Assembly: GCA_031292255.1 (NCBI GenBank)
Contig: JARLHN010000032.1
Location: 32,108 to 96,107 of the forward strand
From: Oryzomonas sp.
GTDB taxonomy: Bacteria > Desulfobacterota > Desulfuromonadia > Geobacterales > Pseudopelobacteraceae
Length of the DNA stretch: 64,000 nucleotides
Direction: 5' to 3'
The notes under the pieces were generated by a model. That model saw only the letters and a program-made list of their open reading frames with translations. It had not been told where the DNA came from and made no database searches. The position numbers and the translations under genes were made by a program. Shown here piece by piece: positions 20,889 to 24,642 of this stretch; within the stretch, counting starts at the first letter, position 1; every line of letters starts with the position of its first letter.

Positions 20889-21173
20889 TCACTTCTCCGA
20901 TGGCGTATCCGAAGGGGGGGCTTTAAGCCCGTTGCGGGCTTTTTGCTCCGCCTCCAGATCCTGCCTTTGTTTTTGCCAGTCTCTTCTGCGGACCTTCATC
21001 AGGATGAAAACACCGGAGATTATGACGATCCCCAACAGGATACTGGTTTCCACGCCGTTGACGATGCCGTAGATGAGCGACGCCACCCCCATCATGAGCA
21101 GCATGGTTTCCAGCGACAGTATCCGCCCGACGAGGGAGATTTCCTGACGTTCCTTACCGCTATTGTGCGGCAT
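20889..21173 (-). CDS. Small two-TM membrane protein of unknown function
   Basis: A 94-aa protein with two hydrophobic segments (SLETMLLMMGVASLIYGIVNG and ILLGIVIISGVFILMKV) followed by a basic, then Glu/Lys-rich cytosolic tail (RRRDWQKQRQDLEAEQK). Its start overlaps the glcD stop by 14 nt and its stop is 4 nt from maf, so it is part of that operon. I do not recognise a named family. Confidence 0.8.
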   Translation of the reverse strand: MPHNSGKERQEISLVGRILSLETMLLMMGVASLIYGIVNGVETSILLGIVIISGVFILMKVRRRDWQKQRQDLEAEQKARNGLKAPPSDTPSEK

Positions 21174-22563
21174 GCGGATTCTCCTCCCAGGGGAACATCT
21201 TGCCCGGATTAAGAATGTTGTTGGGATCGAGTGCGTGCTTGACGGCTTTCATGACCGCAATCTGGTCCGGGGTCAACTCCAACTCGATATAGGGCGCCTT
21301 GGAAAGCCCCACACCGTGTTCGCCCGACATGGTTCCCCCCAGATCGAGGGCGGCTTGGAAGATCTCCCTGATCGCTCCCTCGGCCCGTTCCGACATGCCG
21401 GGTATCTGTTTGTCAATCATCACGTTGACGTGGATGTTGCCGTCTCCGGCATGGCCGAAATTGACGATGGGCACGTCGAATTTCTGCTGGATGGCCTCGA
21501 TCCGCCTGATCACATCGGGAACCTTGCTGCGGGGCACGACGATGTCCTCGTTGGCCTTGTCGGGATTAACGTCCCTGAGCGACGGCGACACCAGGCGGCG
21601 CACCTTCCAGAGCTGCTCCGACTCGGCGGCGTTTGCGGCGGCACGGAACTGGACCAGACCCAATGGTTTGATTATATCATGAATCTGGCCTGCCTGTTTC
21701 TCGATCAACTCCCGGTCCCCGTCCACCTCGATCAGCAGCACGGCGCGCCCCTCGGGAGGGATGCCCAGGTTGAAACGGCGCTCGACGCATTGCAGGGTGG
21801 CATGGTCCATGAATTCCAGCGTGGTGGGGATGATCTTGCCGCCGATTATGGCCGAAACAGCCTTTGCGGCCCCATCGATGGAATCGAAGATCGTCAGCAT
21901 CGTCTTTTTGGCGTCGGGATAGGGGAGCAGTTTGAAGATGATGCGGGTAATGACCCCCAGCGTCCCTTCGCTGCCGCACAGGAGCTTGGTCATATCGTAA
22001 CCGACCACCCCTTTGTAGGTCTCACCGCCGGTACGGATGATGACGCCGGTAGGCAGGACGACCTCCAGCCCCATGACGAAATCCTTGGTGCAGCCGTACT
22101 TGACGGCACGCGGCCCCCCGGCGTTCTCGGCCACGTTGCCCCCCAGGGTGGAAAATTTGAGCGAGGCAGGGTCGGGCGGGTAAAACAGACCCAGTTTTTC
22201 CACCTCCTGCTGAAACAACTCCGTGACAACCCCCGGCTCCACCTCGGCAATCAGGTTCTCGGTATCGATGCGCAGGATGCGGTTCATGCGCGTGGTAACC
22301 AGTACGACGCCGCCCGCCTTGGGAAGGGCGCCGCCCGAAAAACCGCTGCCGGCACCCCGGGGGAAGACCGGGAAGCGTTCGCGGTTTGCCAGTTTGAGCA
22401 CGGCGGACACCTCAGAGGCCGTTGCGGGATGTACGACGGCTGACGGCAGGAATTCCATCTGGGTGGCATCATAAGAGTAGCAGAGCATATCCTGCTTATC
22501 GGTAAGGACGTTGTCCCTCCCCACGATAGCGGCGAGTTCGTCAAGAATCCGTGAGTCAAGCAT
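21160..22563 (-). CDS. glcD: FAD-linked glycolate/D-lactate oxidase subunit GlcD
   Basis: A 467-aa FAD-binding oxidase of the GlcD family. The PCMH-type FAD-binding segment FPVFPRGAGSGFSGGALPK is followed by GGNVAENAGGPRAVKYG and the C-terminal substrate region VNFGHAGDGNIHVN and GTMSGEHGVGLSKAPY. D-lactate dehydrogenase and glycolate oxidase members cannot be told apart here. I start at the ATG at 22563 (MLDSRILDELA), with GAAAGG upstream. An upstream ATG at 22599 would translate a repeat arm. No glcE/glcF partner is adjacent. Confidence 0.88.
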   Translation of the reverse strand: MLDSRILDELAAIVGRDNVLTDKQDMLCYSYDATQMEFLPSAVVHPATASEVSAVLKLANRERFPVFPRGAGSGFSGGALPKAGGVVLVTTRMNRILRIDTENLIAEVEPGVVTELFQQEVEKLGLFYPPDPASLKFSTLGGNVAENAGGPRAVKYGCTKDFVMGLEVVLPTGVIIRTGGETYKGVVGYDMTKLLCGSEGTLGVITRIIFKLLPYPDAKKTMLTIFDSIDGAAKAVSAIIGGKIIPTTLEFMDHATLQCVERRFNLGIPPEGRAVLLIEVDGDRELIEKQAGQIHDIIKPLGLVQFRAAANAAESEQLWKVRRLVSPSLRDVNPDKANEDIVVPRSKVPDVIRRIEAIQQKFDVPIVNFGHAGDGNIHVNVMIDKQIPGMSERAEGAIREIFQAALDLGGTMSGEHGVGLSKAPYIELELTPDQIAVMKAVKHALDPNNILNPGKMFPWEENPHAAQ

Positions 22564-22619
22564 CGGCACACCTTTCGGAGAATTCCAATTCCAAATCAAA
22601 GCGGCATCTTGATGTCATC

Positions 22620-22732
22620 GTAACTATTCAGCACAGTGCTGCAATCTGCACGTCTTTAACCTCCCCTCCCGCAAGGGGGGGGAGACTTTTCAGAATCATT
22701 TTAGTCACGTTCAGAATATGCTGAATAGTTAC
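22620..22732. mobile_element. MITE-like 113-bp element with 14-bp TIRs and 8-bp target duplication
   Basis: The ends GTAACTATTCAGCA (22620-22633) and TGCTGAATAGTTAC (22719-22732) are perfect inverted repeats. ATGTCATC flanks it directly on both sides (22612-22619 and 22733-22740). It is non-coding and contains a C-rich/G-rich hairpin at 22661-22684. The segment at 24319-24355 is a related sequence without the insert and with a single copy of the target, supporting real insertion. The mobilising transposase is not in the window. Confidence 0.85.
22661..22684. repeat. C-rich/G-rich hairpin (type 2) nested in the MITE
   Basis: CTCCCCTCCC-GCAA-GGGGGGGGAG is the same hairpin type as in nuoL (9132-9235), at 10580 and at 38857. 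Confidence 0.65.
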
Positions 22733-22892
22733 ATGTCATCTTTGATTTGAAACCGGAATAAGTTCATTTGAAATCTACGATACATGATTACCCCTCTCCG
22801 ACGCAAGGCAGATTTGCGGCGATAGAGCCAACAATCCTGTTGATTACGCATACTTCATGCCGTAGAATGGGTTTCATTTAGGAGGAGACCAC

Positions 22893-24320
22893 GTGACCGA
22901 CCTGCTGCTGATAACCGATGTGCCGCGCCTCAGGAAGATCTTCAACCGGCTCTCGGATGACAAGGGCATCACGCTGCGCACGGCATCCAACCTTGAAAAG
23001 GGAGGCGAGGAGTTGATCGCCAGGAAGCCGGCCATGGTCTTTGTCCAGACCCACCTCTCCGGGCTTTCCGCGGACATACTGCTGATGCACCTCAAAAAGC
23101 AGCTCGGCAGGAAGCGTAGCCGCTTCGTACTGCTTTGCTCTCCCTCCCAGGTCAGCGCCGATACCATCAAGCTCTACCACGGGCACATCGACACCTCGCT
23201 TGACGAGAGGACGTTGCTGGACGCTGTCCGGCGTACGGTTGCCACCCTCACCCCCCAAAAAGGCCGAAGCGGGCTGGAAGCAGCCCTGGAGGTGGAGGAT
23301 ATCGTTGCCACGTCCGCCGCTGCCCAAGCCGCTCCGGCTGCGACGCAGAGTGCCGAGCCTGCTATCGAACCCGATCGGGAACCGCCGCCAACCCCGGACA
23401 TCCTGGCCATTACCGGGCCGTCAGTCGATCCTGCCGAGCCGTCCCTGGTGGATCAGGGCATCACCTATGCCCCCCGCTCACGGGTCAACGTCTACTCGGA
23501 GTTTACCAGTTCCTTCGACAGCGCCGTTGAGAGCATGCAGGAACCGGAACCGCCCCAGGAACCGGCTCGTCACCCGTTTTCGGGATGGGATATGGAACAC
23601 CTTGAGACGATCGAACCTGAAAAAAAGCTCTCCAAGCGTTTTTCCTTCCTGCTCTGGATAGCACCGGTCCTGGTCGCTGCCGTGGTCGTTACGGTGATCC
23701 AGAACCGCAAACCCCAGCAGAAGCCGGTCGCCGTCATCACAGTAAACCCACTACAGCAGGCGAAACCACTCCCTCAGCAGGCCGCCCCGGCACTGTCCAC
23801 GGCTGCCTCTTCACCGAAGCCGGCCGTTTTTCCCGCGCCCCCCGCCGCCCCCCCGGGAACGGGCAAGGATGCCTCGATGCAATTGAGCGACAAGGCCGTC
23901 CTGTCCGACATCGCCGGGGATCACAGCCGCAAGGAGAAGCCCGGTTCGGCCCAGGCAAGCGCCCGCCCCACCAGATTACCGGAGTTCATCCCCAGCTACG
24001 GCAAGGACAAGCAATACAGCGCCGCCAATCCTGGGTGGGAGCGCTACAAAGGACAGGTTACCGAGTTCAAGGTGTTCCGCGAGAAGGGGTCCATCAAGGC
24101 TATCCAGGTAATCGACCGGGGCGGGCAGGGCGTGCCCGAATCATTCATGAAAGGCGTACTCCGCCAGGTGGCAAAAAAACCGGCCTTTATCCTGGAATCA
24201 TCCGAGAAAAAGGACGGCTACGAGATCCAGCGCGGCAGCATAGCCGACAATCTCAAGGTGGTCTATTACCGGGACGAGCATGGGGGCCACCTGCGCGCCT
24301 TTGTCATGACGTGGCAGTAA
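22893..24320 (+). CDS. Receiver-like protein with a single TM and a C-terminal domain of unknown function
   Basis: A 475-aa protein. Residues 1-120 look like a degenerate response-regulator receiver (TDLLLITDVPRLRKIFNRL, KPAMVFVQTHLSG where the phospho-Asp would be, then a late segment HIDTSLDERTLLDAV). A Pro/Ala/Glu-rich linker follows, then one TM (FLLWIAPVLVAAVVVTVIQ, about 252-270), a second Pro/Ala/Gln linker and a C-terminal ~90-residue domain (GWERYKGQVTEFKVFREKG...). The missing Asp suggests a pseudo-receiver. Topology implies a cytosolic receiver and a periplasmic C-terminal domain. AGGAGG precedes the start. No known family is recognised for the C-terminus. Confidence 0.78.
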   Translation: MTDLLLITDVPRLRKIFNRLSDDKGITLRTASNLEKGGEELIARKPAMVFVQTHLSGLSADILLMHLKKQLGRKRSRFVLLCSPSQVSADTIKLYHGHIDTSLDERTLLDAVRRTVATLTPQKGRSGLEAALEVEDIVATSAAAQAAPAATQSAEPAIEPDREPPPTPDILAITGPSVDPAEPSLVDQGITYAPRSRVNVYSEFTSSFDSAVESMQEPEPPQEPARHPFSGWDMEHLETIEPEKKLSKRFSFLLWIAPVLVAAVVVTVIQNRKPQQKPVAVITVNPLQQAKPLPQQAAPALSTAASSPKPAVFPAPPAAPPGTGKDASMQLSDKAVLSDIAGDHSRKEKPGSAQASARPTRLPEFIPSYGKDKQYSAANPGWERYKGQVTEFKVFREKGSIKAIQVIDRGGQGVPESFMKGVLRQVAKKPAFILESSEKKDGYEIQRGSIADNLKVVYYRDEHGGHLRAFVMTWQ

Positions 24321-24642
24321 TACCGGTTTCGAATCAAAGGTGACATCAAGGCGGCGTGGATTGGGGCGACGTAGGCGTACAGATAATTCTAATAAAAACA
24401 TTTGAGCCACAAAGAACACAAAGTAATATCAACAAGTTGCCCCACCAAAGTCATTCAACAAGTTGGTTCGAGTCTTTATCTTCATAAGCATTTGTATTTG
24501 CTTTGTGCTCTTTGTGTCTTTGTGGTTAATACTTGCAGTTTATAGGCCAAGACGTTGAGAAGACGAATTTGCAGAGCTGATTGGACCGCGAAGGCGCCCT
24601 GGAGGCCTCGTCAAGATAGCGCCTTGGTATGGAATTGGTATT
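24319..24642. repeat. Composite repeat: type-3 ends enclosing a CACAAAG inverted repeat
   Basis: The left end TAATACCGGTTTCGAATC overlaps the stop of the upstream gene. The right end TATGGAATTGGTATTA lies at 24627-24642, just after the stop of the LysM gene. Inside, CCACAAAGAACACAAAG (24407-24423) pairs with CTTTGTGCTCTTTGTGTCTTTG... (24501-24525). TTGGACCGCGAAGGCGCCC near 24580 repeats a segment of the 365-605 element. No gene is seen in this 320-nt gap. Confidence 0.7.

Follow-up and report, generated by a model that had tools for sequence, protein, structure and literature searches.

A 113-bp stretch in an intergenic region of an Oryzomonas genome carries perfect inverted ends set between direct repeats, and the question that it raises is what moved it there. 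The window, by which we mean the whole 64,000-nucleotide stretch of DNA that was analysed, belongs to contig C12 in a draft assembly of 3.72 Mb that is 88% complete. The preliminary description of the window had proposed the insertion of a non-autonomous element and had left its transposase unnamed. We find that this reading was right, and that the question of the transposase is now answered at the family level. Judging from its ends and from the direct repeats around it, the element at 22620-22732 is very probably a type II MITE moved in trans by an IS66-family DDE transposase, of the one-gene kind with GTAACTATTCAGC-type ends. The features of the locus are listed here in order of position.

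22582..22759, plus strand: insertion target, an internally deleted interspersed inverted repeat of about 125 bp interrupted by the element (arms 22582-22601 and 22740-22759)
22612..22619, plus strand: left target-site duplication ATGTCATC (8/8 identity with 22733-22740)
22620..22732, plus strand: non-autonomous element (MITE) with IS66-type ends, 113 bp; its sister copies have exact 8-bp direct repeats
22620..22633, plus strand: left terminal inverted repeat GTAACTATTCAGCA; L067:447-2149, an IS66-family element, ends in these 14 bases too
22661..22684, no strand assigned: G+C hairpin core with a 10-bp stem and a GCAA loop
22719..22732, minus strand: right terminal inverted repeat, GTAACTATTCAGCA on the minus strand (14/14 match to the left end)
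22733..22740, plus strand: right target-site duplication ATGTCATC (8/8 identity with 22612-22619)
24319..24355, minus strand: diverged right half of the interspersed repeat, uninterrupted (30/37 identical to the joined flanks)

The element runs from GTAACTATTCAGCA to TGCTGAATAGTTAC (113 bp) and sits between a minus-strand open reading frame (21160-22599) and a plus-strand open reading frame that begins at 22893. The perfect 14-bp terminal inverted repeats and the exact 8-bp copies of ATGTCATC on either side are present as first described. So is the stacking of three repeat types, with the G+C hairpin inside the element and the element inside the inverted repeat at 22582-22759. The window holds two perfect 14-bp inverted pairs whose members lie within 1 kb of each other, of which the pair at 22620-22732 alone has an exact 8-bp repeat at its edges; 50 dinucleotide shuffles of the window gave a mean of 0.34 perfect 14-bp pairs, and none with an 8-bp direct repeat. 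The element has the properties of a MITE: it is short, has terminal inverted repeats and a target duplication, and occurs more than once in its genome, and insertion into a formerly empty site can be read from a sister copy with single-target sites in congeners G052 and G053. At 113 bp it is too short to encode a transposase, as an autonomous IS66 insertion sequence would. Its ends start with GTAA and match an IS66-family element, and its 8-bp target duplication also agrees with an IS66-derived MITE. An Rfam search of the window at gathering scores returned no match, a tRNA scan found no tRNA, and a consensus promoter and terminator scan of 22500-22950 found nothing within the element and one promoter-like site at 22840-22868 (0.5 expected). 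A terminator role for the element, also considered, is unsupported by the scan of that region, which returned zero terminator-like sites.

The ends of the element point to the IS66 family. The exact 14-mer was found in 28 of 76 genomes of the family (reversed control, 0/76) and in 37 of 395 genomes of the phylum (reversed control, 7/395 by a hand count of the control columns), the phylum-wide places being those among the matches listed, that is, the first places per genome. Among the places listed for family and phylum, three face-to-face end pairs lay 1-3.5 kb apart, all with the identical 14 bp at both ends, and each of the three enclosed an IS66-family transposase gene whose NF033517 score exceeds the curated cut-off:

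G039 long element: 1703 bp, CATTTTTT duplicated, gene product of 476 aa (PF03050 2.4e-45, NF033517 1.1e-83)
G320 long element: 1757 bp, AAAACGCC duplicated, gene product of 471 aa (NF033517 6e-88)
G312 long element: 1566 bp, no duplication (4 of 8 bases differ), gene product of 472 aa (NF033517 7e-81)

G038 has a 1701-bp element, with AAAAATTC duplicated, whose gene is a 92% relative of the G039 gene, and another relative, in G044, lies in an element that reaches the contig end, where the duplication is unreadable. Two plasmid genes annotated as ISGka4 and ISGst1, both IS66-like, belong to units of 1635 bp (AACTCGTC) and 1613 bp (AAAAGAAC), each with an exact 8-bp repeat, and in both units GTAACTATTCAGC stands at one end and a version with one mismatch at the other. 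Around IS66-like genes elsewhere, an Oceanisphaera plasmid has perfect ends without a direct repeat, and the L300 pair has six mismatches in the 8-bp repeat. Thus a transposase-bearing element with the same ends, which the preliminary description had suggested looking for, is found in G039, G320 and G312, and the transposase that it had called unknown can be placed in the IS66 family by the three long pairs recovered from their ends alone and by ISGka4 and ISGst1.

The assignment holds for the family rather than for a particular parent. At either end, the element resembles the G039 element over 15-16 bases and no further, and therefore no single IS is shown to be its ancestor. When IS66 loci were instead found by protein or family searches, such ends with an 8-bp repeat were seen in 2 of 17 loci of one set and in 4 of 36 of a second set (up to 4 mismatches per end). 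The ends of a 2347-bp IS66-family element (L272) are of another kind, GTAAGCG, although its genome contains a short element as well, so GTAACTATTCAGC-type ends mark part of the IS66 family. At L090 and L093 (G016:C48), an IS66-family gene was seen in two adjoining parts on opposite strands, as if part of it had been inverted.

Those three long pairs bear directly on the alternative that a different transposase family with 8-bp duplications owns the element and that its likeness to IS66 ends is secondary. They came from an unbiased search with the 14-mer alone, and among the places listed all of them held IS66 and two of the three had exact 8-bp repeats. The alternative draws on the fact that the shared bases are limited to 13-16 at the ends, and on 19 of 39 genomes with short elements of this kind that gave no IS66 match at E <= 0.001. 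Several transposase families make 8-bp duplications, which also favours it, and five loci (L089, L278, L302, L303 and L305) came from IS66 searches and could not reveal another owner. On balance, we consider ownership by another family very improbable.

We propose that an IS66-family transposase would bind the 13-14-bp ends of the short element, which would then be excised or copied by the enzyme and inserted into a resident repeat of about 125 bp already without its interior. The source of the transposase may later have been lost, or may never have settled in the genome, which would leave the element stranded. A search for IS66 transposases found none in the window's genome (88% complete) or in five congeners (G049 to G053), and a match in 12 of 76 genomes of the family. 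The element therefore looks stranded, although the part of the genome absent from the assembly could encode a transposase. In the passages of PMC10969869 on type II MITEs, such elements resemble an IS in their ends alone, and because the likeness seen here is limited to the ends, the element is a type II MITE in those terms.

The genome of the window holds three full copies of the element, the window copy and two others, plus one found with partial extent by DNA search:

C14:166235-166449: sister copy, 215 bp, GTTTCGGT on either side as an exact 8-bp repeat
C32 from 175329: sister copy, 199 bp, TTTCCATT on either side as an exact 8-bp repeat
C36:74010-74070: truncated copy, from the DNA search of the own genome

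An end-like match at C14:13097 (L005) showed no partner end and was left out of the copy count. All three full copies thus have exact 8-bp duplications, each of a different sequence (ATGTCATC, GTTTCGGT and TTTCCATT), and the search for same-ended copies, on which the preliminary description had made its reading depend, turned up other copies that share both the ends and flanking 8-bp repeats. In their matched parts the own copies are 87-94% identical, a divergence from which no recent movement is shown. The 215-bp and 199-bp copies contain a core of about 120 bp with two hairpins; the window copy keeps one hairpin, so that the hairpin at 22661-22684 is the short form of this core, and the segment between two CCTCC-like repeats is absent from it. 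Comparison of the copies favours a deletion over the reverse, so the window copy has probably been shortened.

The sister copy on C32 also shows the insertion itself. At the orthologous place in congener G053 the sequence reads ...CCTTTTTCCATT-GGGCCTCCTGCAAAACTATTGCGGG..., with a single target and no element, and G052 has the same empty site with one base changed (TTTCTATT). These single-target sites are direct evidence of an insertion that duplicated 8 bp. Clean empty sites for the C32 copy come from G052 and G053 only; G049, G050 and G051 are without both the element and the adjoining repeat. With two sister copies having their own exact 8-bp duplications, and one of them having empty sites, the insertion of a non-autonomous element holds.

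The hairpin core is shared more widely than the ends. The preliminary description had classed the hairpin inside the element as a type-2 repeat of the window, and this hairpin is the core common to elements with different ends. The two-hairpin core of the 215-bp copy matched the core of a CAGCRNTGTCCGGTT-ended element in the same genome with 86% identity over 131 bp (E 2.8e-36). The 30 loci with the core in the own genome represent 28 distinct places (L009 and L011 are the same place, as are L010 and L012). Full IS66-type ends frame the core at three of them and truncated ones at one (L013), IS4-type ends at ten (up to 3 mismatches per end) and a third kind at three (up to 2 mismatches), and 11 places stayed unassigned. 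At the ten IS4-type places the 9-bp repeat was exact in three, had one mismatch in two, two mismatches in one and at least five mismatches in four; in another set of 30 loci, 10 of 12 short pairs with CAGCRNTGTCCGGTT ends had an exact 9-bp repeat. The third kind of end, GGCTCTTGCAAAAGTC, frames related cores at its three places (L027, L031 and L036) without clear duplication. A longer element with the second kind of end was also found:

L335:1501-2836: IS4-family element, 1336 bp, CAGCRNTGTCCGGTT ends, AAGAAAACT duplicated (9 bp), encodes an IS4-family transposase (NF033592 1.2e-59, above the cut-off)

From this IS4-family element a second MITE family, abundant in the own genome and in G051, is likely to derive.

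Since the core outnumbers the IS66-type ends in the genome, one may ask whether the core itself is the mobile unit, REP-like and moved by a RAYT-type enzyme, with the IS66-like ends as bystanders. The direct repeats, however, stand at the outer ends, and they are 8 bp long where the ends are IS66-type and 9 bp long where they are IS4-type. The repeat length thus tracks the type of end, so that the ends go with the duplication, and we give the core as mobile unit very little weight. A chance or convergent arrangement of inverted ends and a direct repeat in a repeat-rich intergenic region is the least credible explanation of all, and in our view already refuted by the sister copies and their empty sites: the region is indeed stacked with repeats, but 0 of the 50 shuffles gave a pair with an 8-bp repeat, and the two sister copies have different exact 8-bp repeats, one of them with empty sites in congeners.

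It remains to consider how one core came to stand between different ends. Cores and ends could possibly have been joined by template switching in gap repair, by recombination at hairpins or by selection for a folded core. More tentatively, and we would sooner bet against it than for it, hairpin cores may be interchangeable cassettes framed by unrelated IS ends, with a strong hairpin perhaps needed in very short elements, where it would bring one end to the other in a DNA too stiff at that length to bend readily. If this is true, a good many of the hairpin repeats scattered through bacterial genomes would be cores left stranded from such short elements. Hairpins like GTCATTCCCG, which we take to be scattered repeats in many bacteria, might be stranded cores of this kind. 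One hairpin core stands, in a single genome, between the ends of two or more unrelated transposase families, which provides a testable case for the birth of such elements and for the need of a folded core in movement.

The repeat into which the element was inserted gives a second view of the event. This interspersed inverted repeat measures 81-253 bp across the copies compared, and its right arm (the equivalent of CTTGATGTCATC-TTTGATTTG) is uninterrupted in 32 of the 68 matches listed (by a hand count; the scoring covered 40 of 58 candidates). The preliminary description had taken the segment at 24319-24355 as a paralogous empty site. The match of this segment to the joined flanks is confirmed (30/37), but the bases adjoining it resemble the interior of the interspersed repeat, and it is a diverged half-copy of the target repeat rather than an empty copy of the same locus. 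The uninterrupted right arms elsewhere hold as a stronger form of the same argument. In the window's copy of the repeat, the left arm meets the right arm at CTTGATG, and by comparison with the other copies the interior seems for this reason to have been lost before the arrival of the element.

Four of the five congeners (G049, G050, G052 and G053) have neither the repeat nor the element at the locus orthologous to the window copy. In G051 (L127) this spot holds instead some 175 bp of unrelated, repeat-like sequence with GACGTAC...GTACGCCT, and two congeners therefore differ at one intergenic position. None of the five congeners thus offered a clean empty site for the window copy at this locus. 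The enclosing repeat, type 3 of the preliminary description, has dozens of partial matches in the own genome and G051 (L096-L125), and at E <= 1e-5 the four other congeners match it solely at the orthologous locus. Longer forms of this repeat hold a further nested hairpin (GAGGCCTCCGGCCTCC...), which is doubled in L106.

Among known systems, the one-gene IS66-family elements ISGka4 and ISGst1 have GTAACTATTCAGC-type ends and an 8-bp target duplication like the window element, and differ from it in being 1.6 kb long and transposase-coding, whereas the window element is 113 bp and non-coding. One-gene IS66 elements of this type are called ISBst12-like. The type II bacterial MITEs of the passages concerned in PMC10969869 are likewise short, with inverted ends, target duplication and a folded core; those passages describe no IS66-type ends, and the core of the window element also occurs between other ends. 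The word IS66 is absent from the text of that review. Its passage on Chunjie, a MITE of Geobacter uraniireducens, describes mostly intergenic copies of 178-235 bp with conserved ends and direct repeats, and the window family, compared with it by description only, is also mostly intergenic and variable in size, with conserved ends and direct repeats. TIMEs (PMC4133298) are short, non-autonomous and equipped with transposon ends, as the window element is, but are derived from Tn3, unlike the IS66-type window element. Our literature search did not find GTAACTATTCAGC in print, and such repeats may stand in supplementary alignments of Geobacter genome papers; in passages of two papers that name both MITE and IS66, the mentions of IS66 are unrelated to the MITEs described there. 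The 113-bp element taken alone is an ordinary MITE of little-noticed parentage, and it is the interchangeable folded cores that merit follow-up.

Short elements with these ends recur far beyond the family. A scan of genome contigs for the same ends 107-167 bp apart gave at least 111 stretches with at least 115 elements, and the 80 titles listed include Gammaproteobacteria, deltaproteobacterial groups, Lachnospiraceae, Prevotella and Spirochaetes. All 111 listed stretches were used to count duplications: among the 113 flanked elements in the matches listed, the 8-bp repeats were exact in 55, had one mismatch in 17 and at least two mismatches in 41. When the frame was shifted by 1, 2, 3 or 4 bases, the same 113 elements gave 2, 0, 0 and 0 exact repeats, and by our estimate from base frequencies about 0.01 such pairs would be expected by chance in the collection. 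Four further short pairs of 108-218 bp, taken from the phylum list outside the window's genome with both ends listed as exact, had an exact 8-bp repeat in two cases. A class of short elements that share these ends across several phyla can now be given a parent transposase family.

What stands out is that constant ends enclose unrelated folded cores. We compared 90 elements, 82 of them from 80 of the at least 111 stretches and 8 from the own genome and family, and among these matches listed they fell into 38 sequence clusters. Interiors without the end repeats were folded with RNA energy parameters against 40 dinucleotide shuffles each, with one representative per cluster and lengths set to 107-167 bp by the search pattern. 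A fold at z <= -2 was reached by 33 of the 38 representatives (median -5.7) versus 10 of 72 adjacent stretches (median -0.2; p 1.4e-14), leaving five representatives that did not reach z <= -2. That transcripts of MITEs form stable folds is generally known, according to the passage on this point in PMC10969869. At six loci (L038, L062, L071, L080, L163 and L184), short elements with these ends carry hairpins like GTCATTCCCG.
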